Source: an uncultured Alphaproteobacteria bacterium (GTDB taxonomy: Bacteria > Pseudomonadota > Alphaproteobacteria > Rs-D84 > CACZYB01). Taken from it: a stretch of DNA of 64,000 nucleotides. The DNA lies in NCBI GenBank assembly GCA_944392955.1, contig CALXYK010000002.1:1-64000 (forward strand). The letters run 5' to 3'. A program made the position numbers and the translations under genes. This document shows, in pieces, positions 45,575 to 62,923 of this stretch. How positions within the stretch are numbered: the first letter of the stretch is position 1; each line of letters opens with the position of its first letter. The notes beneath the pieces were generated by a model. That model did not search any database. It was not told the DNA's origin and saw only the letters and a program-made list of their open reading frames with translations.

Positions 45575-48199
45575 TTACAAAACTTCTTCTTGATCAGAAT
45601 AGTTATCAGAATATTCTATATCTTCATCATCATAATATTCTGTATCATCGTAGTATTCTTCGTTATCATAATATTCGTCGTTATCAGGCATTGATGCGAT
45701 TTCTTCTTCATCATCTATAACAATAGAAATTACATCTTCGGATGGTTCTACAAACTCTTCTTCTTCAATACCTGCATCTATTTCTTCTACTTCTATAATA
45801 TCTTCTGGATAATAAACTATTTCGTTTGCTTCTTCCAAATTATCATTAATTAATTCATCAGAAGAATATGTTAAAATTTCAGGACTTTCTTCGTATTCAT
45901 CTGTCAAATCTCTGGTTATTGTAGTGGTTTCTTCGGACACTATATCTATATCGCCTTGGTTATTTGAAATTTCCTGTTGATATACTATTTCAGTAGTCGC
46001 AGTCAAAGGAACAAGAGAGGCCTCTATTTCCATATTATCCACAAGCTCATTTTCTACCTCGTCCTTTTCTATTATAGCCAATAAAACTGCGGATGGACCA
46101 CCTGCATTTTGAACTGCATTATAAACCTTTGATAAAAGAATCAACTTTGTTAAAGGACGTCCTAAAATCTGTAATTCCTCTTCTATTGGAGTATACAAAT
46201 CAACAGCAGTGCTGTTTGCATATTCATAAGTCATAACAAACTCATTAACTATATATTCAAAGAAATCAAAGTAAGCATTTGTATATAACCTTAACAAATA
46301 TTCGTCGTTTGCGTATTTTTCGTAGTCTATATCTGGTTTTAATGTATAATCTGTTTCATAATATGCTTCATAAGTTGCATTTCTAAAATCGTTCCAATAA
46401 CGATTCATTTTTTCAATTTCTTTGATTTTACTAATATCATCAAGTGTAAAAAATTCATTCTTAACTTCTTCTAATAATGTCAGATATTTAGAATCTTTCA
46501 ATACTGTATTTATATATTCTTCTCTAGACTCGTCTAATAAAGAAGTATCTTCAAAAGATTCATCTTCTATATAATCTTCTTCATAAACTTCTTCTGTATA
46601 ATCTTCTTCTGGTTCTACCTCATCATAATATTCAAGTATTTCAGATTCTTCTTCCACATAAGATTCCTCTGGGGTTTCGGAAATTACAACAGGTTCTTCT
46701 TTTTTAGTTTCAACAACAACTTCTTTTTCAATCTTTTTTTCTGTTGTCTTTTTGGAAATTGGTTTTACTGGTGCAGGAGCAGGTTTTTTATATTCTGTTT
46801 TTGGCTCCGGCACAATAACTGGCTGTTCCTCTATTACTATATTTTCTTCTACAATAGGTTCATCTACCACAACAGGTTCTTCTACAACAGGTGTCACTTC
46901 TTCGGAAGGTTGCTCATCTACAATATTTTCAGGAGAAACATAAGGTTGTGGAGTTTCTTGGTAATTTTGTTCTATATAATTGGTATTATAGACATCTTCA
47001 TTAACAGGATATTCTGTACTTTCACCACTACTTAAAAGAAAAAATAAACCAAAGACAACAACAAGAGATGCAATGACAGAACCGACATACAACCAAATCT
47101 TTTTATACTTGTCATCAAGTAACTCTGTTTTTTGAGCGAATCTTATATCACTGCTTTTTACTTCTTGATTTTCAGTATCATCAACAAATGGAGGTTTAAA
47201 CTCCGCAGAATTCTTTACATTCTTGTTTTCTGTCTCTTTTACCATAGTAGTCTCCTTTTCTTGTAGAATAGTGTCAACACCTTCTCCTGTTTCGTTTGTA
47301 GCATTTATATTTTCAGTTGTCAAATTTTCTATTTTCCCATTTGTAATATTTTGAATATCCTCGTTTTTTTCAAGTATATAATTATTAGATATAACCGAAT
47401 CTACTTCGTTTTCAGAAGAAAGAATCTCTTTATTATCTTTAATATCAGTATAATTCTCCCCTCTTTCCTCTAATCTTCGTTTTATTTCTTGAATTTGAAC
47501 TCTTTTTAAAGATAAATCCTCAAATGCAGATTCTGAACGTTTTTTTGCCCTTTTTATCCGACGTTCAGTTCGTTTTAATTTCTCGGTATTATCATACATT
47601 TTTTTTACAAGTTCAGATTTTAAAGTCTCATCAACTTTATCTGGATTTTTTTCTTCTAATTCCTTTTGTTTTTTTAATCTTTTTGAAATATTTAGAATTT
47701 TCTTCTTTAAATTTTCAAGTGTAACTGATGCTTTTTGTATTGTTTGTGTGGATTTATTATATTGTAAGAGGTTTTCCGCCTCCCTTTCGTATGCATTTTC
47801 TAATGATAAAATTTCCCTGTTTTGCATAATTAAATCAAGAGTTTCTTGATTTTGAAGAGATGAAAAAGATGCATACAAGTCTAGTTTTGCATAACTTATA
47901 TCTAATTTTTTGTATTTAGTGTTTTCCTTTGGTCTGATGTTAATAGGATTTATGCCAAATTTGTTTTTTAATATAGAATCCCATTTAGTATTAGGTTTTT
48001 TATTTCCAATATCTTCCTTTAATGGTTCAATGATAAGTAAATTATTCGGAGAAACTATATCACATGTGTTATCCAACACAAATGCAATTTCTTCGTTTTT
48101 GAAAAAAACAACAAAAGAAACAATATCTGATGTAAAGTGAAACTCCCTTACATCACTATAACTTTTGTTTATAACCCAAAAACTTTTAACTCCCTCCAT
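45575..48199 (-). CDS. Large single-pass acidic protein of unknown function
   Basis: The 874-residue protein has a cytoplasmic N-terminal domain (1-130, FWVINKSYSDVREFHF), a strongly charged coiled coil at about 135-250 (LKRTERRIKRAKKRSESAFE), one membrane helix at about 368-391 (WLYVGSVIASLVVVFGLFFL), a Pro/Glu/Val-rich spacer (PVIVPEPKTEYKKPAPAPVK) and an acidic domain with a Tyr/Asp/Glu tail (YYDDTEYYDDEDIEYSD). The layout suggests an inner-membrane protein reaching into the periplasm, perhaps to the wall. No enzyme motif is seen. It follows gcrA by 27 bases and is probably cotranscribed with it. Confidence 0.75.
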   Translation of the reverse strand: MEGVKSFWVINKSYSDVREFHFTSDIVSFVVFFKNEEIAFVLDNTCDIVSPNNLLIIEPLKEDIGNKKPNTKWDSILKNKFGINPINIRPKENTKYKKLDISYAKLDLYASFSSLQNQETLDLIMQNREILSLENAYEREAENLLQYNKSTQTIQKASVTLENLKKKILNISKRLKKQKELEEKNPDKVDETLKSELVKKMYDNTEKLKRTERRIKRAKKRSESAFEDLSLKRVQIQEIKRRLEERGENYTDIKDNKEILSSENEVDSVISNNYILEKNEDIQNITNGKIENLTTENINATNETGEGVDTILQEKETTMVKETENKNVKNSAEFKPPFVDDTENQEVKSSDIRFAQKTELLDDKYKKIWLYVGSVIASLVVVFGLFFLLSSGESTEYPVNEDVYNTNYIEQNYQETPQPYVSPENIVDEQPSEEVTPVVEEPVVVDEPIVEENIVIEEQPVIVPEPKTEYKKPAPAPVKPISKKTTEKKIEKEVVVETKKEEPVVISETPEESYVEEESEILEYYDEVEPEEDYTEEVYEEDYIEDESFEDTSLLDESREEYINTVLKDSKYLTLLEEVKNEFFTLDDISKIKEIEKMNRYWNDFRNATYEAYYETDYTLKPDIDYEKYANDEYLLRLYTNAYFDFFEYIVNEFVMTYEYANSTAVDLYTPIEEELQILGRPLTKLILLSKVYNAVQNAGGPSAVLLAIIEKDEVENELVDNMEIEASLVPLTATTEIVYQQEISNNQGDIDIVSEETTTITRDLTDEYEESPEILTYSSDELINDNLEEANEIVYYPEDIIEVEEIDAGIEEEEFVEPSEDVISIVIDDEEEIASMPDNDEYYDNEEYYDDTEYYDDEDIEYSDNYSDQEEVL

Positions 48200-48226: not shown

Positions 48227-48781
48227 TCAGTTTGTATTTTCAGTAGTGTCCTGTTCTTGCTCTTTTTCCTCCGAAGAAGTGGAAGTAGTATATGCAAGAG
48301 CACAATGTTCCAAACAATATGGTTTATTTTTAAAAACCTTTTTTCCACAAAAACGAAAATCATCAGAATTTGGATCATCTATTGGCCAACAGCAACGATC
48401 CGAACTTAGTTCATAAATTGAAACACCAACATCTTCATTTTTCTTACTTTTTGATGTGGTAGTTGTTGTTTTAAGCGATTCGTTTTTTATTATAATTTCT
48501 TTTTCTTTTATCTCCTTTTTTGAAACAGAATTTTTATTTTTGATAGGGGCCTTATCTAATAATTCAATTTTAGAAGCAGATGTTTTTTTCACGACTTCTT
48601 TCTTAGATTTAACAGAAGTAGTTTTGATAGGTGAATTTCTGTTAGAAAGGCCTAATCTATGCACTTTTCCAACAATTGCATTTTTAGAAAAACCAAGTTT
48701 TTTTCCTATTTCAGCAGTAGGCACCCCCTTATCCCAAAGAACTTTTAATTTTTCTATTTTTTTATCTGTCCATGCACTCAT
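48227..48781 (-). CDS. gcrA: GcrA cell-cycle regulator
   Basis: The 184-residue protein has the GcrA N terminus (MSAWTDKKIEKLKVLWDKGV, then FSKNAIVGKVHRLGL, a helix-turn-helix) and the C-terminal Cys/His segment CCWPIDDP, FRFCGK, YCLEHCALAY. GcrA binds sigma70 and activates genes through CcrM-methylated GANTC sites; it is restricted to Alphaproteobacteria, so this is strong taxonomic evidence. The middle (60-130) is Lys/Ser-rich and variable. It lies upstream of the 874-residue gene. Confidence 0.95.
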   Translation of the reverse strand: MSAWTDKKIEKLKVLWDKGVPTAEIGKKLGFSKNAIVGKVHRLGLSNRNSPIKTTSVKSKKEVVKKTSASKIELLDKAPIKNKNSVSKKEIKEKEIIIKNESLKTTTTTSKSKKNEDVGVSIYELSSDRCCWPIDDPNSDDFRFCGKKVFKNKPYCLEHCALAYTTSTSSEEKEQEQDTTENTN

Positions 48782-48852: not shown

Positions 48853-49605
48853 ATGTTTACTATTATTGATAAAATTTTACCCCTTGCAATCTTTTTTTCA
48901 ACAGGTTTTTTTATTCCTGTTTTAAGTAGATTTTTGATGAAATTTTACCCTTGCTCTATGCATAGTTATTTTGGAGATATGTTAAAGTTTTACATTAATA
49001 AAAAACAAATTAAATTAAAACATACACATAAACAATATAACTATTTGAAAAAACAATATTTATATACTAAATTATTATGGGGGACTTTATATCTTATTTT
49101 ATTTACTTTAATAGGATATTTGGTTAAAAATTACGTGAGTGAAAGTTATCCTTTAATTTTACTTTATATTTTCTTGTTTTTTATAGGTTTTGCTGCAAAT
49201 ATAGATTCAAGATGTAGACTTATTCCCGATATAATTACCTTTCCTTTGATGATGGTAGCCTTTTTAATATCTGCATATTGTCAAAACAACAAAATATTTA
49301 GCCAGATTTACATTTCAGATTTAACTAGTATTTACAGCGCAATAAGCGCTTATATTTTATGTTTTATATTAGCATTATTATATTATTTCAAAAACCCTTA
49401 CTCTTTTGGTGGAGGAGATGTAAAGTTGATTTCTGCAGTTTCTGCTTTTGTAGGTTTTTTTGATTTACCTTGGATATTTTTATTTATGTTTGCAGCAGGA
49501 ATTTTTTACGTTTTTATTAAAAAAGAAAAATTTTTACCTTTGGCACCAATGATATTTATTTCTTTTATTGTATGGTTATTATTAAAAATTTTATATTATA
49601 TATAA
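48853..49605 (+). CDS. Prepilin peptidase, A24 family
   Basis: The 250-residue membrane protein has about seven helices and the two catalytic Asp sites of A24 aspartic peptidases: ANIDSRCRLIPDIITFP and FGGGDVKLIS. It cleaves the leader of type IV pilin-like proteins. The N-terminal methyltransferase part is short and lacks the usual paired CxxC motifs. GGAAAC precedes the ATG. No pilin is encoded in the window, and the four following genes carry ordinary signal-peptidase-I leaders, so its substrates are elsewhere. Confidence 0.88.
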   Translation: MFTIIDKILPLAIFFSTGFFIPVLSRFLMKFYPCSMHSYFGDMLKFYINKKQIKLKHTHKQYNYLKKQYLYTKLLWGTLYLILFTLIGYLVKNYVSESYPLILLYIFLFFIGFAANIDSRCRLIPDIITFPLMMVAFLISAYCQNNKIFSQIYISDLTSIYSAISAYILCFILALLYYFKNPYSFGGGDVKLISAVSAFVGFFDLPWIFLFMFAAGIFYVFIKKEKFLPLAPMIFISFIVWLLLKILYYI

Positions 49606-49647
49606 AAAACTCTTTTATTTTTCATTTTTCTAGTATACTCTATTAGC

Positions 49648-50826
49648 ATGAGGAATAAATGGAGAGGTTTATTGAGAAAGGTTTTATCTTATCTTATTGT
49701 TTTTAATTTGGTATTTATGCCTTCTTTGTCCTTTGCCCAAAGAAGGAGTGCGACATCAAAAAAATCAACTGCAAATATAAGAAAAAACAACACTTCTACA
49801 ACCACAAAATCTTCTACTGAAACAGAAGGTGCTAGTTTATCATGTTCTGAAAAATATAATTTGTGTATGGATAATATTTGTGTTAATTCTCAAGGAAATA
49901 GATATTATTGCTCTACTGCAATAGACTCTTTTGAAACTGTTGAAAAAGATGGGGAAAAAATCCGTATAGGAAACGATTTATATACTTTGGCAAAGGGGCT
50001 TTGTGCTGATACATTAAGAAGTTGTGAACTAAAAGAAAGAAATCATATAGAAACAGCATACAAAGCACAAATACAAGAAGATTTACTTACAAAAAATTAT
50101 TTAGATGCTATGAATGTAGAATCGGACGAAACTCAAACTGCATTATTACAGGAATATATTGCCTGTATGCAACCTCTGTGCGGAAATGCTTTTTCTGATT
50201 GCTTTACCATAAAAAATGTTGAAAGAAGAGCATCTAACTGCGAAAATGTGCTTGCAAAATCTTCTAAACCTTTATCTGTTAAGAAGGCTTTTTATAATGA
50301 ATTACAAAAACAAAGAAGTGCATTTTGCTCTAATACAGGTGGATATATCGATTACGACACAAAAGTTTGCAAGGTAAAAATTTCATATGGCTCGTTAGAA
50401 GTACTTAAAGACAAAGATGGAAATATGTATTTTTCAGGAGAAATGGAAAAGGAAGTTTCCTCGAAATATTTTAATATAGGAGAAATGGTAGAATGCTCGC
50501 AAGAATATTTTCAAGTTATAAATGAAGAAACACCTTCATTAGCAAGTGCCATTGCCGATTTTGCATTAGGAGCAGTTAGACAAGTTGCAGGTGTAGCGTT
50601 AGTTGTTGCAGGTGCCCTTGTTAGTGTTGGAACTTTGGGAATTGCTGGAGCAGAAGGAATACCAATGATTTCAAATGGAAGTGCTTTACTATTAAAGGGA
50701 ACAGCAAATCAAATAAATGGTATGATAAAAGTAAATTCAACTTCTAAAATCCCAAGTGCTTGCTTTATAGATGGAAGATATATTACAAGCATGGGGAATT
50801 ATTTTAGAGTTGATTATATACTTTAA
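49648..50826 (+). CDS. Secreted Cys-rich protein, tandem family member 1
   Basis: The 392-residue protein has a signal peptide cut after SLSFA (residue 30), a basic Ser/Thr linker (31-65, RRSATSKKSTANIRKN), then a Cys-rich domain opening CSEKYNLCMDNIC, with later YIACMQPLC, CKVKISYG and VECSQEYF. An Ala/Gly/Val-rich helical stretch (about 295-335, VAGVALVVAGALVSVG) could insert in or associate with membranes, and a closing ACFIDGRYI follows. No ribosome-binding site precedes the ATG; a TATACT box ends eight bases before it. It is 42 bases after the prepilin peptidase gene. The family is not recognised. Confidence 0.78.
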   Translation: MRNKWRGLLRKVLSYLIVFNLVFMPSLSFAQRRSATSKKSTANIRKNNTSTTTKSSTETEGASLSCSEKYNLCMDNICVNSQGNRYYCSTAIDSFETVEKDGEKIRIGNDLYTLAKGLCADTLRSCELKERNHIETAYKAQIQEDLLTKNYLDAMNVESDETQTALLQEYIACMQPLCGNAFSDCFTIKNVERRASNCENVLAKSSKPLSVKKAFYNELQKQRSAFCSNTGGYIDYDTKVCKVKISYGSLEVLKDKDGNMYFSGEMEKEVSSKYFNIGEMVECSQEYFQVINEETPSLASAIADFALGAVRQVAGVALVVAGALVSVGTLGIAGAEGIPMISNGSALLLKGTANQINGMIKVNSTSKIPSACFIDGRYITSMGNYFRVDYIL

Positions 50827-50854
50827 CATTTTTAAATAAAGGGATTAAATTTTA

Positions 50855-52147
50855 ATGCATAATATATTGAAAACACGAAATAAATTCTTGCTAAAAAAAT
50901 CTATTTTTTTAGTGGTTGTTTTGTGTTTTTCTTTTTCTGTAAATGCTCAGAATTCAAGAAGAAGTGCACAATCTTCGTCACGAAAGAATCAAAAAACATC
51001 TGGACAAGTTAGAAGGACTACACCCTCTTCTTCTAATACATCAGTTGAAAAAAACTCAAATACCAAATCTGTTTCCGATATAGATGTTTCTCAGGTGAAT
51101 AAATATAATTGCGAAACCTTATATAATAAATGTATGAATCAATTTTGTTTTTCAAAAACAAATGGCAGATGTAGTTGCAATACAACAACAAACTTTAACA
51201 ATGCAAATAAAAATTGCGAATATATAATACAAGCTTGTTCTTCGCAAGCAAATGATATTGTTGAAAAGTATATGAGAAATGCAAAATCTGATTGTTCATC
51301 TTATACAATGGCAAGCATGTCTTCGGAACAAACATCTTTGTTTTCGGTTCTTTCTAATGTTATTGAATGTTTGCGTCCTAAATGCAAAGCAAATAGAAAT
51401 GATGAATTTGCAGGATGTTTTGATGAAGATAATTTTGAGGCAAAATTAGAAATGTGTAAAAGTGAGTTTGAAAATGTTTCTGATTTAGACACTTTAAAAT
51501 CTATGTTAAATGAATCTATGTTAACCTATAAGCAAAAATATTGTGATAGCATTTTAGGAACGATGAAATCTGATGGGGAATGTTATCTTACTATTGGAAT
51601 TGGACCTTCGTATAAATCAATTAAGAAAACAAAAGAGTTCAAAATCGGTGATGATGTTGTTTGTTCGGAAAATGCCTTTGGTACAGATTTGGGGGAATCA
51701 AAACATCAAAAACTAAGATATTACAAAGAATTTGCCTTGTTAGGGATGAATCTTATTCAATCTGGACTTGATATTGCTGCCAAATATCAAGACGGAAAAA
51801 GAGATACTGCTGATAAAAGTTCTTTGGAAGTAATTGATGTAAAAGATAATAATAATGAAAGAGTTGGGCATCAATTAAGCGTATATGAAGGTTCAGGAAC
51901 ACTTAAATCTTCTTACTCTTTGGCTGATGCTGGTGGTGATGCTGTTGCATCTTTGCTTTCGGATCCTGAAAATACCGCTATGGTTATTATGGGGGCAATT
52001 GAATTGTCAAATGCGGATTATTCCTATTCCGGAGCATGTTATGTTATAAAAGGAGATCAGGTTCAAAAATTATTTGATGCTGATGACAATTACTATTATA
52101 AATTAAGATGGACTGAAAATTGGAATAAAAATATGTATGCAAATTAA
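50855..52147 (+). CDS. Secreted Cys-rich protein, tandem family member 2
   Basis: The 430-residue product has a signal peptide cut after SFSVNA (residue 31), a basic Ser/Arg/Gln linker to about 80, and the Cys-rich domain: CETLYNKCMNQFC, GRCSCN, CEYIIQAC, VIECLRPKC, YCDSIL, CYLTIGIGP, VVCSENAF. A weaker Ala/Gly/Leu-rich stretch follows at 290-385, and the last segment has GACYVIKGDQV. The order of motifs equals member 1. The start is 28 bases after member 1 stops, with AAAGGGATT upstream. Function is unknown; location is periplasmic or beyond. Confidence 0.78.
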   Translation: MHNILKTRNKFLLKKSIFLVVVLCFSFSVNAQNSRRSAQSSSRKNQKTSGQVRRTTPSSSNTSVEKNSNTKSVSDIDVSQVNKYNCETLYNKCMNQFCFSKTNGRCSCNTTTNFNNANKNCEYIIQACSSQANDIVEKYMRNAKSDCSSYTMASMSSEQTSLFSVLSNVIECLRPKCKANRNDEFAGCFDEDNFEAKLEMCKSEFENVSDLDTLKSMLNESMLTYKQKYCDSILGTMKSDGECYLTIGIGPSYKSIKKTKEFKIGDDVVCSENAFGTDLGESKHQKLRYYKEFALLGMNLIQSGLDIAAKYQDGKRDTADKSSLEVIDVKDNNNERVGHQLSVYEGSGTLKSSYSLADAGGDAVASLLSDPENTAMVIMGAIELSNADYSYSGACYVIKGDQVQKLFDADDNYYYKLRWTENWNKNMYAN

Positions 52148-52159
52148 CATAAGGATTGT

Positions 52160-53980
52160 ATGATGCTGAAGTTTTTTGTTTGTGTTATATGCTTAGTTTA
52201 TTCAACAGACTTGTTTGCTGCGAAAAGTTCTGTTAGAAGCGCATCTTCTAAAACAGAGAGAAAAACTTCTCAAAAATCTTCTTCTAAGACAAGTTCAAGA
52301 TCCTCCTCTAACACCAAAAGTCAAAGATCTTCCACTGCTAATGTTAGAACGACGACAAAGGTATCTGAAACAAATGAAGAGGATGATATGGTTTGGGATA
52401 ATGCTACCTGTGATGCCGAATACATGAGGTGTATGAATAAAGTCTGTTCAAGTGATGATATGGGAAAATGTATTTGTTATGAAGATAATACCACAAATAA
52501 TTTAACTCCATCATTTTTAGATATTGACGGAATGAAGGTGAAAAAGGGATTTGAAGCCTTAGATTATGCAAAAAACCAGTGCACATATATACTTGATAAA
52601 TGTAAAGATTCAAGAAGAAGTGTTACCGAAAAATATAAAAGTTTAGTGCAAAGAGATTGTTTATTGATTACACAAGAAAAAGCCCTTAAATCAAAAGGAT
52701 TAGCCGGAGATATAGAAGAACTTAAAAAATGTATGAAAGATCCTTGTACCTTAAAAACAGCCTTTGGTGAGGAGGATTTCTCTGCTCCGGAATATAGTTT
52801 GTGTTTCAGTGATAATGTCGCTAAATTTAGTATGGATGCATATTGCTCAAGTATAATATCAAAGTCATCTTCTCCTTTATCATTAAAACAATTATTCCTT
52901 GATGAAATGGCATTAAGGAGAGAAGAATCCTGTATTGCTATGAAAGGAACTTTGAGCAATGATAGAAAATCATGCTATGTTACTATAAAATATGGATTGA
53001 ACAAAAATGATATTAAGAAATCAAAATCTGTGCCCGTTGGAAGTTTTGTTGAGTGCTCTGCCGATGCATTTGATGCTAAAAAGAATCTGACACCTGCGGC
53101 AAGAAGGGAAAGAGCAAACAAAATTTTGTCCTCTACTGCAACCGCACTAAATTCCGCCGGAGCGGTTTTGGAAGTTATGGGAAATGCTGATCCTATTGGA
53201 AAAATAATCAGTTCTGGTATTGATTTAACAGAAACAGGTGTGGATTTGGGTTTTGATATTGCCGCTTATGCAAGAGGAGAACTTGATCTTTCTACATTCT
53301 CAGATGTGTTAATGGGTGATATATTAAGCGTTGTATCAAGTGCGGCTTCGTTTACTGGCACTTTTGGAAATATGACTGCAAATGCAGTTTTAGAGGCGGT
53401 TTCCGATGGAACAGATATTGCAGTTCAAGGAGTAAGTGTTGCAAAAGATACTTATAATTACATAAAATCTGATAAAGATTCTGCGGACACTACAACTTTC
53501 TTTACTAACCTAGCACTAAAAGGAGCTTCTATTGTAAGTTCCTCTATGGATTTGAATGATTCAATTTCCAATATTAAGACTGCAAAAACGACTCAGGCTA
53601 TACAAGATTCTATCACAAATGACGCACTTAAAGGAGCTGCTCCGTCTAATGCATTACAGGTTTCATCGGTAGATTCAAATACCATTGTTATCAAACCTTC
53701 CGAAGCCGCATCAAAAGCGCAAAAAACAGCCAGAAGTTTAGAAATGGCATCTAAGGCAACTGGAGTATTATCTAGTGTAATAGATACATCAATGACTTTT
53801 GCCGCAGATAATCTTCAAATAGAAGAAGAAAATTTAGCAATAACAAAACATGCCGAGGTTGACAGAGAATCGGGGACTGGAGTAATAAACGAAACAAAGA
53901 CAGAGAAAGGAAACTGCTTCTTAAACAATGAATGGTTTGCTACGGAAAACGAAGTGATTATGTTATTGTGGAAAAATTAA
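52160..53980 (+). CDS. Secreted Cys-rich protein, tandem family member 3
   Basis: The longest member, 606 residues, has a short signal peptide (cut after DLFA, residue 20), a Ser/Lys/Thr/Arg linker to about 75, and the Cys-rich domain: CDAEYMRCMNKVC, GKCICYED, CTYILDKC, LKKCMKDPC, YCSSII, CYVTIKYG, VECSADAF. A long Ala/Gly/Ser-rich helical region of about 240 residues (310-550) follows, with alternating weakly hydrophobic stretches, and GNCFLNNEWF closes it. The helical region recalls colicin- or tape-like helices in composition only. The start is 12 bases after member 2. Confidence 0.78.
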   Translation: MMLKFFVCVICLVYSTDLFAAKSSVRSASSKTERKTSQKSSSKTSSRSSSNTKSQRSSTANVRTTTKVSETNEEDDMVWDNATCDAEYMRCMNKVCSSDDMGKCICYEDNTTNNLTPSFLDIDGMKVKKGFEALDYAKNQCTYILDKCKDSRRSVTEKYKSLVQRDCLLITQEKALKSKGLAGDIEELKKCMKDPCTLKTAFGEEDFSAPEYSLCFSDNVAKFSMDAYCSSIISKSSSPLSLKQLFLDEMALRREESCIAMKGTLSNDRKSCYVTIKYGLNKNDIKKSKSVPVGSFVECSADAFDAKKNLTPAARRERANKILSSTATALNSAGAVLEVMGNADPIGKIISSGIDLTETGVDLGFDIAAYARGELDLSTFSDVLMGDILSVVSSAASFTGTFGNMTANAVLEAVSDGTDIAVQGVSVAKDTYNYIKSDKDSADTTTFFTNLALKGASIVSSSMDLNDSISNIKTAKTTQAIQDSITNDALKGAAPSNALQVSSVDSNTIVIKPSEAASKAQKTARSLEMASKATGVLSSVIDTSMTFAADNLQIEEENLAITKHAEVDRESGTGVINETKTEKGNCFLNNEWFATENEVIMLLWKN

Positions 53981-54044
53981 AAAAAATACTTTCGTTTATC
54001 TGAAAATTATGTTATTATTCATATTATAAACAGGAGAGTTATAA

Positions 54045-55400
54045 TTGAAGATAGATAAATCTAATATTTTTTTATATGTATTCTGCACATTTTTATTAGC
54101 CGGTGGAAAGATTGTATTTGCCGCTAGGTCGTCTTCTACCACAAATTCAACAGAAAGGGCTTCTTCTAGGAAGGTAACAAAGACAACAAAAACTTCAAGG
54201 ACTACAAAATCTTCTGTTTCAAGAGATACAAGAAATACTAGATCCTCTATTTCACAAGAAAATATAATAGAAGTTGACGATGCACAAACAAATGACGTTC
54301 AACAAGAAATTCAACCTGTTGTTTCAACTGATACCTCTTCTAATGTCCCTGTTTCTAATACGGCGGCGACTACTATGTCTAATACAGCAACAGCTCCAAC
54401 TCAAAATCAAGTAGTAGAGACTATAAATGTTGTTGAACCTGCGATTACTAATAATGTATCAACAGAACAAGAAAATGAAATTCCTGATATGTCTAAAGAT
54501 GAAGATTGGGAAGATTTTCGCCTTTGCATGCAACAATCTTGTTCTGGTGGTGATGATCAACCAAACAATGTTCAATGTTATAAAAGCCTTAATTTTGATA
54601 ATGTTTTTGCTAATTGTAAATTGCTGGTTGATTCTTCTAAACAAGAAGATTTTAGAGAATATTTTACAGGTCCTTTCTTATTACAAGAACAAAAAGAATT
54701 TTGTGAAGGCGATTATTGGTCTGGAAAATTTGATGAAAAAACAAAAAAATGTAATCTTTCGGTAAAATACAACAGACCTGCATATAGTGGAAAAGTATAT
54801 AAGTGTGGCGCTGTTTCCTCAACTAAAACATGGTCATTGGACGGGAAAACATATACTTGTTTAGGTGAAAATTTTGGAGCTTCGGCATGTTATCAGGATA
54901 GTCCTAATGTCGCAGCTGCTCAAATGCAACAGATAACAGGAGCAATTACCTTAGCAACCGGAGCTATTGCTGCGACTGCGTCTGTTGTTTCTACTTTAAA
55001 AGATGTAAAAACAGCAACTTTAAATGTAAAAAATGGTGATGAATATACTAATATAAATATAACAAAAGATCAAATAGGTGATTATGTTCAAAAAAATGAT
55101 GACGGATCTTTAAAAACTGATAACTTTGGTAATTATCTTGTAACAGAGGATGCAGAAAAGATGGGAATTACATCTGGAATGTTAAGTTCTGCTAATGCTA
55201 AATTAAGTGGGACATCAAAGGCATTAGATGCAACACAAGCGGCAGTTACTTCTGGACTTCCTACTATGACAGAAGGTGCTGCTCAAATAATTTCCGGATC
55301 TATTGCCAAAAAGGAAAAAGGGGACAGATTATATGGAACATGTGTTTTACCTAATGGACAGGTAATCCCTGAAAATTCCAATATAACACTTTCGTGGTAG
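54045..55400 (+). CDS. Secreted Cys-rich protein, tandem family member 4
   Basis: The 451-residue product has a signal peptide cut after KIVFA (residue 26), a Thr/Ser/Arg linker and a further Thr/Asn/Val-rich stretch to about 140, then a reduced Cys-rich domain: FRLCMQQSC, VQCYKSL, FCEGDYW, CNLSVKYN, VYKCGAVS. An Ala-rich helical region (290-430) and GTCVLPNGQ end the protein. It keeps the order of motifs of members 1-3 but lacks some cysteines. The start is TTG, set by CAGGAGAG. A 64-base gap before it may hold a promoter. It converges on rnpA. Confidence 0.75.
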   Translation: MKIDKSNIFLYVFCTFLLAGGKIVFAARSSSTTNSTERASSRKVTKTTKTSRTTKSSVSRDTRNTRSSISQENIIEVDDAQTNDVQQEIQPVVSTDTSSNVPVSNTAATTMSNTATAPTQNQVVETINVVEPAITNNVSTEQENEIPDMSKDEDWEDFRLCMQQSCSGGDDQPNNVQCYKSLNFDNVFANCKLLVDSSKQEDFREYFTGPFLLQEQKEFCEGDYWSGKFDEKTKKCNLSVKYNRPAYSGKVYKCGAVSSTKTWSLDGKTYTCLGENFGASACYQDSPNVAAAQMQQITGAITLATGAIAATASVVSTLKDVKTATLNVKNGDEYTNINITKDQIGDYVQKNDDGSLKTDNFGNYLVTEDAEKMGITSGMLSSANAKLSGTSKALDATQAAVTSGLPTMTEGAAQIISGSIAKKEKGDRLYGTCVLPNGQVIPENSNITLSW

Positions 55401-55402
55401 AT

Positions 55403-55882
55403 TTAATTCTTTTTTTGATTTTTTATTTGATGTTCTATGAATTTAAAAGTTCTATGAAGTTCGTTTCTTAATTCATCAAATGGAGTGTCTAAAATAGAAC
55501 TGCGGGCTGTAAAAACAAAATCATACCCCCTAATTTTATAATTTCTTATATTTTCATTTATTATTGCCCTTAATCTTCTTTTTACAAGATTTCGTTTATT
55601 TGCTTTTTTTGAAACGGATTTTACAGCAACGGTAAAACCTATATGTATATTATTATCATCAAACCTAGTAGTTGCCCAATGAGTAATCAAAGAATAGGTA
55701 ATAAAACGATTAGGATTATCTGTTGGAATTTGTTCTCCTTTGTGTAATAATCCACTTTTAATAAGGCGTTTTTTCCCTATTTTCATTATAGCAAAAGGAT
55801 TAATCCTAAAAAAATCTAATTTACGATTTTTTAGCATTTTGATCTTTGTTTTACTATTTTTAAACCTTAAAAAATTAACCAT
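55403..55882 (-). CDS. rnpA: Ribonuclease P protein component
   Basis: RnpA aids the RNase P RNA in trimming tRNA 5' ends. The conserved core is IGFTVAVKSVSKKANKRNLVKRRLRAII, here quoted in part: VSKKANKRNLVKRRLRAI is the RNR motif region, followed by YDFVFTARSSI. The family is usually about 120-130 residues. I take the ATG at 55882 (159 residues), but no ribosome-binding site marks any start; the ATG at 55786 would give 127 residues and fits the family better. It lies downstream of rpmH in the usual order. Confidence 0.88.
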   Translation of the reverse strand: MVNFLRFKNSKTKIKMLKNRKLDFFRINPFAIMKIGKKRLIKSGLLHKGEQIPTDNPNRFITYSLITHWATTRFDDNNIHIGFTVAVKSVSKKANKRNLVKRRLRAIINENIRNYKIRGYDFVFTARSSILDTPFDELRNELHRTFKFIEHQIKNQKKN

Positions 55883-55916
55883 GTTTATATGATACAATTA
55901 AGTATATTTTTTACAA

Positions 55917-56112: not shown

Positions 56113-56206
56113 AATATTCACCTTTTAATATTTAAAATAATGTTCGGATTATATATGTATTTAAACCAAAAGTCAATACAAAAATATATATATTATATTT
56201 ATAATG

Positions 56207-56505
56207 GAAGTTTTCTGTTGATAGGAAACTTCCAAACCCCACTTTAAGAAATCTTAATTCTTAAAGAATCAAAGTTGCAATATTTGCTTAATTAAGCAGC
56301 CATTGCGAAAGAACGATTATCATTTGCGTTCATTTTTTTTGACCCGATTGAAAGTCGGAATCATCACTTGATACACCTTAACCCTTTATTGTATCCGTCG
56401 ATGCTATTTTACCCCCTTATATTTTTATGGTGGAGGTATGGGGTACCGCCCCCCAGTCCGAAATACCTATTCTAATTAAGATTTAGTATCATAGCCAAAC
56501 GGCAT
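56207..56505 (-). ncRNA. ssrA: Circularly permuted two-piece tmRNA
   Basis: tmRNA rescues stalled ribosomes and adds a degradation tag. On the minus strand the acceptor piece comes first, about 56505 to 56428, ending TACCTCC-A-CCA. An 11-base spacer (56427-56417) follows, and then the coding piece, which starts at 56416 with GGGGGTA and the conserved ATCGACGG. GGGGGTA and TACCTCC pair over seven bases with one G-U. The tag frame at 56327-56292 encodes ANDNRSFAMAA then TAA. A hairpin at 56207-56232 may mark the 3' end. The permuted form is known in Alphaproteobacteria. The outer ends are approximate. Confidence 0.92.
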
Positions 56506-56556
56506 TTATATTTTAGAATCTTTTTGATTTTTTTTCAAGCCTATTTAATTTTAAAT

Positions 56557-56584
56557 TTGAAAATCCTTAAAAATATGCTATAAT
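56557..56584 (+). promoter_or_regulatory. Promoter for the CorA-like gene
   Basis: TTGAAA (56557-56562) and TATAAT (56579-56584) are 16 bases apart, with TGC just before the -10 (extended -10). It is 22 bases upstream of the start. Confidence 0.7.
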
Positions 56585-56605
56585 TTTTCAAAATAGGAGG
56601 GAAAA

Positions 56606-57421
56606 ATGTTTGTCAAAAATATAAATGTTAAATCTGATAATATAGATGAAATTGTTTCCGAACACAATATTGACAAAGATTTACTTCTTGATGTACAAGA
56701 TACCAGTGAAATTTCCCGTTTCCTTGAAAAAAGAAATTATACCGAGATAATTATAAAATACCCTTATAAGAAAAATATTGAAACCTTAGGTGTTCATTTA
56801 CAAAAAGATGGCATTGTATTTCTTCATACAGAAGAATTTCCTTTTGAGATAAATAAAGACTTAAAAAGTTCTACCTTAATACTTGTAGATATTATTTATA
56901 AAATCTCTGAAAATTATTTTAAAATACTTAAAAATATAGATAAAAAAATAAAAAAAATAAAGTCTTCTTCTAGATTATCTGTAAAAAATGTTGATATGTT
57001 AAATCTTTTTGAAATACAAAATGATTTAGATGATTATGTTATAAGTTTAAAAGGTAACTTGCTTGTTTTAGGCAAAATAGTTTTAACAATGCCTTCAAAT
57101 GAATTAGTAAATGATGCAAAAATTGAAGTAGAACAGGCTTTGGAAACTGCTATATCTTACTCTAAAACTGTATCTAATTTAAAAAGTACCTTGGAAATTA
57201 TTACAAACAACCTTACAAATAAAAGAATGGAATCTTTGACTATTGTTAATGTTTCAGCCTTAATTATCACAAGTATTTCTGGACTTTATGGAATGAATGT
57301 AAATTTACCTTTTTCCAATCTTCATAATGTATTTTATTATATAATCTTGGTAAGTATTATTTTATCTTTTACCTTTGGATTTTCATTAAAGAAAAAATTT
57401 AGTGAAAAGACAAAGAAATAA
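56606..57421 (+). CDS. CorA-family divalent-cation transporter
   Basis: The 271-residue protein has a cytoplasmic N-terminal domain, a long helix (about 125-205) and two C-terminal membrane helices. The signature GMN occurs in GLYGMNVNLPF at the end of TM1, and the second helix is YYIILVSIILSFTFGFSL with a basic tail. CorA proteins import Mg2+ or sometimes Co2+/Ni2+/Zn2+. It is shorter than the classic CorA of about 316 residues. ATAGGAGGG precedes the ATG. Confidence 0.9.
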   Translation: MFVKNINVKSDNIDEIVSEHNIDKDLLLDVQDTSEISRFLEKRNYTEIIIKYPYKKNIETLGVHLQKDGIVFLHTEEFPFEINKDLKSSTLILVDIIYKISENYFKILKNIDKKIKKIKSSSRLSVKNVDMLNLFEIQNDLDDYVISLKGNLLVLGKIVLTMPSNELVNDAKIEVEQALETAISYSKTVSNLKSTLEIITNNLTNKRMESLTIVNVSALIITSISGLYGMNVNLPFSNLHNVFYYIILVSIILSFTFGFSLKKKFSEKTKK

Positions 57422-57466
57422 ATTAAAGTTAGAAATGTTTTTATATATTCAATGATAAAAAATAAA

Positions 57467-57492
57467 AAAATAGCCCTTAGTAGGGCTATTTT
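57467..57492. terminator. Bidirectional terminator, corA / rRNA operon
   Basis: AAAATAGCCCT and AGGGCTATTTT form an 11-base-pair stem with loop TAGT. On the minus strand it is followed by a run of T, so it should end the rRNA operon as well as corA. Confidence 0.82.
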
Positions 57493-57533
57493 GAAGATTT
57501 AAAATATGTTGTGCAAAATAATGTGCTTTGAAA

Positions 57534-57651
57534 ATCCGGCAATAACCTACTCTCCCGTGCCTTAAGACAAAGTACCATCGGCTCGGAAGGGTTTCACTGT
57601 CTAGTTCGGGATGGAATAGAGTGTATCACCTTCCAATATCGTCACCGGATT
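57534..57651 (-). rRNA. rrf: 5S ribosomal RNA
   Basis: On the minus strand the ends ATCCGGTGAC and TTGCCGGAT pair as helix I, and the inner segments GGTGATACACTCTATTCCATC-like and CCGAACTAGACAGTGAAAC match the conserved 5S core (the CCGAAC motif and the GAGAGTAGG segment). Length is about 118. It is the last gene of the rRNA operon. Ends are approximate by a few bases. Confidence 0.92.
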
Positions 57652-57707
57652 GTCAAAGAACAGTATTTTATCTAGTCAATAATTATGAAAAGTATTATTT
57701 AAAGTAA

Positions 57708-57732
57708 TGATCTAATTATCAAAACATATAAC
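57708..57732 (-). other. 23S processing stem, 3' arm
   Basis: This 25-base segment is complementary to 60482-60506, with one mismatch. The two arms bracket the 23S gene and should form the RNase III processing helix of the precursor. Confidence 0.75.
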
Positions 57733-57736
57733 ATAT

Positions 57737-60481
<2,745 letters not shown>

Positions 60482-60487
<6 letters not shown>

Positions 60488-60506
60488 TGTTTTGAAAATT
60501 AGATCA
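60482..60506 (-). other. 23S processing stem, 5' arm
   Basis: Pairs with 57708-57732 over 25 bases with one mismatch; see the 3' arm entry. It touches the predicted 5' end of 23S. Confidence 0.75.
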
Positions 60507-60727
60507 AAACATATGTTCTCTACTTTGAGAATACTTTCATAATTTAATTACAAAAATATTTGCTAGACTAGATGATTATCAATATTTACTAGAATGTTAA
60601 TTACTTAACCATAATTTTATTAAATTTCGGCGTATAATAAAATTATATAACTAATAAATTTAATTAATAATCTAAACACAACATATTCACAATTTAAAAC
60701 ATCAAAAGCAATCACCCTTATTTTTTT
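60507..60727 (-). other. rRNA operon spacer between tRNA-Ala and 23S
   Basis: This AT-rich internal spacer of about 220 bases carries no gene that I can see. It is transcribed as part of the rRNA precursor. Confidence 0.6.
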
Positions 60728-60803
60728 TGGTGGAGGAGATGGGGATCGAACCCACGACCTCTTGAATGCAAATCAAGCGCTCTCCCAGCTGAGCTACACC
60801 CCC
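60728..60803 (-). tRNA. tRNA-Ala (anticodon TGC)
   Basis: The minus strand gives acceptor GGGGGTG / CTCCTCC, D-arm AGCTCAGCTGGGAGAGC, anticodon stem CTTGA / TCAAG around TTTGCAT, T-arm GTGGGTTCGATCCCCAT, discriminator A and encoded CCA. The G3-U70 pair, the main alanine identity element, is present. Position 6-67 is a U-U mismatch. It lies in the 16S-23S spacer. Confidence 0.95.
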
Positions 60804-60828
60804 AAAATTAGTCAAAAACCAATCTTAA

Positions 60829-60905
60829 TGGTGGGCTTGGATAGACTCGAACTATCGACCCCCGCCTTATCAGAGCGGTGCTCTAACCAACTGAGCTACA
60901 AACCC
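60829..60905 (-). tRNA. tRNA-Ile (anticodon GAT)
   Basis: The minus strand gives acceptor GGGTTTG / CAAGCCC, D-arm AGCTCAGTTGGTTAGAGC, anticodon stem CCGCT / GGCGG around CTGATAA, T-arm GATAGTTCGAGTCTATC, and encoded CCA. GAT reads AUC/AUU. Together with tRNA-Ala it forms the standard spacer pair of alphaproteobacterial rRNA operons. Confidence 0.96.
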
Positions 60906-60990
60906 AAACTGATATAAAATCAAAAATCTAAGTTTGTATTTCCAGTGAAACCAGAATTTTTACAACTCTGATTCAGATTTTTATTCTTTA

Positions 60991-61011
60991 TAAGGGATGT
61001 ATAGACGGCAG
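60991..61011 (-). other. 16S processing stem, 3' arm
   Basis: TAAGGGATGTATAGACGGCA plus one G is complementary to 62690-62710 over 21 bases, with one position that becomes a G-U pair in RNA. The two arms bracket the 16S gene, the known layout of the RNase III precursor helix. Confidence 0.85.
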
Positions 61012-61050
61012 ATAACCATTATTTCTTAATCAAAAGAAGCGTTATCTTTG

Positions 61051-62550
<1,500 letters not shown>

Positions 62551-62923
62551 TAAAAAAAATTCTAAGTCTTAATCCTGCACTTATGTATATATTAACTTAA
62601 AGAAAAAGTAAGGGTTTTAAAAACCATATTACCTTTTACTTTATCTGTCATTTAAAATGTGCAGTGTCAGACAACTTTTGATAGCTATACTGCCGTCTAC
62701 ACATCCCTTAGATTGCTTATTCACTATGTAAAAAATCAAAACGCACTCAAAAAAACATTGTATTTTGAAAAACAGGTAGCAATTCTAATACAATTTTTTT
62801 TATTTGCAAGAAAAAAATTTTATTTTTTTCATTTTTTTATTTTGGAGAGGTTGGAGAGATTAGAAATAATAAAATATTGATTTACTTTTTCGTTTCCATC
62901 CCTGCAACGTTCAAGTGTAAATG
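62551..62923 (-). other. rRNA operon leader
   Basis: This leader of roughly 370 bases runs between the promoter and 16S. It contains the 5' arm of the 16S processing stem, A/T-rich tracts and no protein gene. An open frame at 62659-62880 on the plus strand has no ribosome-binding site and lies within the leader. Confidence 0.65.
62690..62710 (-). other. 16S processing stem, 5' arm
   Basis: Pairs with 60991-61011 over 21 bases; see the 3' arm entry. Confidence 0.85.

Follow-up and report, generated by a model that had tools for sequence, protein, structure and literature searches.

The described systems closest to the locus reported here are type IVb pili of the R64 thin pilus and TCP kind, whose R64 variant is marked by PF06864 (PMC3984277), and the proteins TcpF and CofJ, which are soluble, Sec-exported, encoded with a type IVb pilus gene and flexible at their mature N terminus. 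In V. cholerae one operon encodes both TcpF and the pilus, and type IVb pilus substrates carry an aromatic residue among the first residues of the mature protein, the T4bP-SS (PMC9565799).

The genome that contains our locus (915 kb, 96% complete) encodes machinery like that of R64 and TCP. A single operon on contig C10 holds all the components by which we recognise the R64 type (PF06864 PilO, TcpQ/PilL, secretin, T2SSE ATPase and T2SSF): TcpQ (PF10671, E 8e-17), a secretin (PF00263), PilO (PF06864, E 1e-16), a PilP-like gene, the T2SSE ATPase (E 1.5e-67) and PilR, the one T2SSF gene of the genome. Because it includes PF06864, we assigned the operon to the R64 variant, and judged by this gene content the pilus is of the R64/TCP-like type IVb. 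An A24 peptidase is present as well. The arrangement differs from R64 and TCP in that the pilus genes are spread across four or more loci and the peptidase gene lies apart from the assembly genes, at the head of an array encoding secreted Cys-rich proteins of which no homologue has been described in R64 or TCP operons.

A peptidase gene and four Cys-rich paralogues

The window, the whole stretch of 64,000 nucleotides that was analysed (contig C2), holds this array at 48853-55400 on the + strand: one A24 prepilin peptidase gene and then four genes for Sec-type secreted Cys-rich proteins, here called Cys1–Cys4. An initial annotation of the DNA had placed five genes 12 to 64 bases apart on one strand; the open reading frames lie exactly where it put them, and the measured gaps are 42, 28, 12 and 64 bases. 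The array is flanked by a divergent gcrA on one side and a convergent gene on the other, and promoter and terminator scans gave results no better than shuffles.

48227..48781, − strand: gcrA cell-cycle regulator, divergent, outside the array; PF07750, E 1.3e-34
48853..49605, + strand: A24 prepilin peptidase (PilU/TcpJ-like), 250 aa; PF01478, E 8e-13
49648..50826, + strand: Cys1, 392 aa, 14 Cys; leader, linker, Cys domain, Ala/Gly/Val stretch, C-terminal Cys segment
49834..50526, + strand: Cys domain of Cys1, profile 3-219; E 2.6e-72 (sequence itself in the profile)
50722..50823, + strand: C-terminal Cys segment of Cys1 (ACFIDGRY...)
50855..52147, + strand: Cys2, 430 aa, 17 Cys; parts ordered as in Cys1
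51098..51694, + strand: Cys domain of Cys2; E 1.8e-60
52001..52117, + strand: C-terminal Cys segment of Cys2
52160..53980, + strand: Cys3, 606 aa, 18 Cys
52397..53083, + strand: Cys domain of Cys3; E 6.0e-74
53879..53977, + strand: C-terminal Cys segment of Cys3 (GNCFLNNEWFATENEVIMLLWKN)
54045..55400, + strand: Cys4, 451 aa, 11 Cys; TTG start behind AGGAG
54480..54884, + strand: half Cys domain of Cys4, matching profile 95-217 at E 1.5e-11; Cys4 absent from the seed
55403..55897, − strand: convergent gene closing the array; putatively ribonuclease P protein-like, by reading

The peptidase scores 49.2 bits against PF01478 (curated cut-off 26.5). Its motifs, read directly as DSRCRLIPD (D118) and GGGD (D189), provide the two Asp, the second in GxGD, that define A24 enzymes; we take D118 and D189 to be catalytic from established knowledge of the family. 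A profile search of the genome found this as its sole A24 enzyme. It must serve the type IVb pilus, if it serves any pilus, which by itself does not involve Cys1–Cys4. Our preferred reading, held tentatively, is that the four proteins are disulfide-rich and assist the R64/TCP-like type IVb pilus as accessory factors in the envelope or at the surface.

Cys1, Cys2 and Cys3 share a domain of 220 residues with 14–16 near-invariant Cys: Cys is invariant or near-invariant at 14 alignment columns, Cys2 and Cys3 have two more, and the C-terminal Cys segment comes in addition. BLASTP showed these three to be mutually paralogous (E 7e-5 to 1e-17) and did not detect Cys4. A profile built from 22 such domains, never including Cys4, detected it at E 1.5e-11 over the second half of the domain only. 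In leave-group-out scoring, Cys1 reached 126 bits, Cys2 110 and Cys3 138, where none of 1,000 shuffles of each exceeded 12.4 bits; Cys4, outside the profile, reached 37 bits, with its 1,000 shuffles staying at or below 10.3. Homology among Cys1–Cys4 exceeds chance, and with scores this far above the shuffles the four genes form one paralogous family, as had been proposed. The initial annotation also held that the fourth member had lost cysteines; Cys4 is indeed short of Cys, but what is absent is the entire first half of the domain (profile 95-217 being matched), not scattered cysteines. Besides all four proteins, the profile recovered a fifth paralogue of 664 aa, also with a half-domain, on another contig of the same genome (L085:11395-13389). 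A half-domain fifth paralogue lies away from the array in this genome (G000) and in its relatives G001 and G003.

Searches of Pfam, NCBIfam, PHROGs and the PDB, the last by sequence and by fold, gave only below-cut-off matches to Cys1–Cys4; Foldseek runs of the Cys1 and Cys4 models against the PDB had best E values above 1. The Pfam scan likewise contained no TraN or other Cys-rich transfer protein family, for Cys1–Cys4 at E up to 1 or for the 22 domains at 0.1, and we found no description of the family in open-access literature. On these sequence comparisons, which agree with the initial view that no described family has this layout, Cys1–Cys4 are a new protein family confined to one order, with a predicted fold that is apparently new and absent from the PDB. 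A mobile origin was considered and set aside, as a tblastn search with Cys3 found nothing in phage and plasmid records.

Leaders, tethers and predicted structure

The leaders look like substrates of signal peptidase I, as the initial annotation had it, with AxA-type sites ahead of hydrophilic linkers; cleavage sites were assigned with a simple rule rather than with SignalP. In Cys1, cleavage is predicted near the SFA–QRR junction and a basic S/T/K/R linker follows. The tether behind the cleavage site is strongly basic in most members, Ser/Thr-rich and almost without aromatics: with sites set by that rule, 20 of 24 scored linkers have no F, W or Y at all, and 1 of 24 has one within its first ten residues. 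Cys1–Cys4 have no type III prepilin leader, in which [GA]xxxxE precedes a hydrophobic segment, and no N_methyl match in the Pfam scan. The SPI-like leaders and the missing N_methyl match speak against their being type IV pilins.

A second way of tying the proteins to a pilus would make them soluble colonisation factors like TcpF and CofJ, Sec-exported proteins that the type IVb pilus moves across the outer membrane and that dock on a minor pilin through a flexible N terminus. The Sec leaders, the long flexible N-terminal tether and the type IVb machinery of the genome are what this would predict; however, linkers nearly free of F, W and Y do not provide the aromatic residue expected near the mature N terminus, and because this signal is missing we rejected membership of the TcpF/CofJ class, although the proteins may still depend on the pilus for export. 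Cys1–Cys4 differ from TcpF and CofJ further in being four paralogues and in having no detectable sequence or fold similarity to them or to any PDB chain, all of which makes this alternative improbable.

AlphaFold2 modelled Cys1 with confidence over most of the domain: residues 62-290, mostly at pLDDT 80-93, form helices and then a long beta hairpin, and the C-terminal segment forms strands at pLDDT of about 80, whereas pLDDT drops below 50 in the tether (residues 24-61) and in the Ala/Gly insert (residues 292-366). The Cys4 model has helices, hairpin and C-terminal strands in the same order at lower confidence; in sequence this protein consists of a long S/T-rich linker, the half Cys domain, an Ala/Gly region and C-terminal Cys. 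The insert, helical and rich in Ala, Gly and Ser, is longest in Cys3, where it is placed between the domain and the C-terminal segment. As we picture it, each protein holds out a disulfide-rich domain, part helical and part beta, on a flexible, basic, S/T-rich tether, and the helical insert, which is Ala/Gly-rich and partly hydrophobic, probably loops out of the beta part. After Sec export and cleavage by signal peptidase I, the proteins would be oxidised in the periplasm; DsbA is encoded in this genome and in 56 of 59 relatives.

The hydrophobicity of the insert bears on whether the proteins could be membrane-inserting or contact-dependent effectors whose Ala/Gly/Val stretch enters a target membrane. 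Such a stretch lies at residues 315-334 of Cys1 (residues 316-334 average 2.16 on the Kyte-Doolittle scale) and residues 297-315 of Cys4 average 1.69, but Cys2 and Cys3, at 1.02 and 1.28, have nothing comparable. The array also offers no candidate immunity gene, and its orthologues are inherited vertically, which is not typical of effector sets, so that we regard an effector role as very unlikely.

Distribution and gene order in relatives

Relatives located in a scan of named genomes are uncultured MAGs, one of them from water deer rectum. In the comparisons that follow, families (f1–f6) and genera (g1–g14) carry anonymous labels. A profile search of 385 genomes across the class found matches in the window's own order only; there, 56 of 59 genomes have a hit at E 1e-4, with full-length domains only in f1 and f2. 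Orthologues of Cys1–Cys4 stand in the same order in the genus-mates G001, G002, G003 and G005, and in G004 up to the contig end. In G008 (f1, g4) a Cys1-like gene, a half-domain gene and a Cys3-like gene come after the peptidase; G010 encodes the peptidase and Cys1, and G016 (f2, g10) the peptidase and two family members. In G011 (f2, g5) the peptidase is followed by four family members, the last a half-domain like Cys4, by an 856-aa Cys protein and by a prepilin gene. A peptidase followed by a family member recurs in nine genomes of four genera (g1 and g4 in f1, g5 and g10 in f2). The five-gene order is thereby conserved in g1 and partly in g4, and the order peptidase-Cys1-Cys2-Cys3(-Cys4) is common to the two families, which implies that the duplications are old. 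They predate the genus and probably the split of the two families, consistent with the diversification by duplication that the initial annotation envisaged; Cys1–Cys4 would thus have arisen by old tandem duplication in one order of small-genome Alphaproteobacteria. A tree separates Cys1, Cys2 and Cys3 and places the first member of G011 beside Cys1 (80/84), although its long branches make the placement of the G011 and G008 rows unsure. We do not count the absence of peptidase and Cys genes from G006, G007 and G009 as true loss, since gcrA is missing too and the locus is probably unassembled.

Elsewhere in the order the peptidase has other neighbours. In f3, f4 and f6 no family member lies directly beside it, and in f5 it is followed by secreted proteins without detectable homology to Cys1–Cys4. 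The f5 loci (L115:7439-11185, L124:7407-11323 and L050:3690-8513) hold secreted genes of about 300, 440 and 590 aa, some with glycine-zipper-like stretches; as candidates for diverged Cys1–Cys4 these genes (303, 440 and 590 aa) were rejected, with hhalign probabilities of at most 2.5% at this sensitivity. The same family does encode several diverged, repeat-bearing relatives of the Cys domain per genome, scattered and mostly away from the peptidase. These secreted Cys-rich proteins (720-930 aa, likewise undescribed) resemble Cys1–Cys4 in their leaders, the CxxxYxxCMxxxC motif and a helical Cys domain, and differ in being longer, in having the domain split by insertions and repeated, and in lying outside the peptidase array. 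Three f5 subfamilies aligned to the Cys domain with hhalign probabilities of 97.6, 96.9 and 96.9 (E 3.7e-12 to 1.4e-10). Together with the matches across the order, these alignments place Cys1–Cys4, as far as sequence can tell, in an order-wide undescribed superfamily.

Because f3, f4, f5 and f6 separate the peptidase from family members and most f5 members are scattered, it is almost as likely as our preferred reading that the array is an independent surface or periplasmic scaffold or adhesin set, with no role in the pilus and sharing a transcript with the peptidase by an accident of old gene order. A superfamily far larger than the array, a fifth paralogue encoded elsewhere, and neighbours such as gcrA that are also conserved without a pilus link would all fit an independent array; against it speak the peptidase–Cys adjacency, which two families preserve, and the two separate cases of a neighbouring prepilin gene in relatives.

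Further features of the window lie on either side of the array, on the − strand. The gene adjoining gcrA (45575-48199) encodes an 874-aa acidic single-span protein that is kept beside gcrA across f1, f2, f4 and f5 and matches no Pfam or NCBIfam family above cut-off. After the array, 56203-62551 holds a tmRNA gene, whose region matches alphaproteobacterial and permuted tmRNA models alike, and an rRNA operon (16S, two tRNAs, 23S, 5S); the long open reading frames called there are antisense to rRNA.

Prepilin neighbours and a possible pilus link

Prepilin-like leaders were read in five genes of the window's genome, located via profiles and the relatives' proteins; TIGR02532 had no match in this genome at 0.01. 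Three adjoining genes of 456-469 aa lie on contig C11 (L103:7223-11413), and two small prepilin-like genes on C4 and C16. In two relatives, prepilin genes adjoin family members: the Cys cluster of G011 runs on to one (L038:3876-4379), and in G001 another precedes the fifth paralogue by about 180 bases, on the same strand. These two adjacencies, together with DsbA, lead us to favour exported, disulfide-locked accessory proteins of the pilus. The tight array headed by the genome's only A24 enzyme and the peptidase–Cys linkage in both f1 and f2 point the same way. Against the accessory role stand the differing peptidase neighbours in f3–f6, the window genome's own fifth paralogue, which has no adjoining prepilin gene, and the lack of a prepilin leader or aromatic secretion signal in Cys1–Cys4. 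Co-occurrence does not discriminate, since almost every genome of the order has both the family and pilus machinery (T2SSF occurs in 58 of 59 relatives). The initial annotation had called the link to the peptidase only positional, which is true of the window alone; beyond it, the recurrence in nine genomes, the single A24 enzyme, the type IVb pilus encoded elsewhere and the prepilin neighbours in two relatives make it stronger than that, and a link to the pilus suggestive.

As pilus accessories, Cys1–Cys4 might, for example, offer the pilus or its large minor pilins a platform on the cell surface or an adhesive partner; they may form an assembly, as the initial annotation supposed. A bolder version builds the outer part of a type IVb pilus system (platform, anchor or adhesive complex) from an order-specific superfamily with a new fold, a previously undescribed kind of partner; it seems to us doubtful. 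Should the pilus link prove true, it would bring a new class of pilus partner, with a fold that the PDB lacks. The bacteria that carry these genes are uncultured small-genome Alphaproteobacteria, abundant in metagenomes and partly from the gut. That they retain complete pilus machinery and a large, undescribed set of Cys-rich secreted proteins at genome sizes of about 1 Mb suggests importance for their lifestyle.

Other Cys-rich proteins were noted near pilin or family genes. L069:64-1599 of G011 encodes a 511-aa protein with a prepilin leader (GRSMIEMLGVLAI), 26 Cys and a repeat like ACxGGxDxVCxxF; its Cys repeats do not match the domain, so it is not a prepilin fused to it, and it may be a Cys-repeat pilin. 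L133:0-902 of G001, about 4 kb from the fifth paralogue, encodes a 12-Cys secreted protein without a match to the Cys profile; its linker is basic (Ser/Thr/Arg), and it has a motif like CNIDIDYCFSRYC. In the window's genome, some 3.4 kb away from the three large prepilin-like genes, L103:1658-3835 (contig C11) encodes a secreted protein of 725 aa and 22 Cys, which has an orthologue at L105:13256-15433; it too lacks a match to the Cys domain, and its linker is similarly basic (Ser/Thr/Lys).
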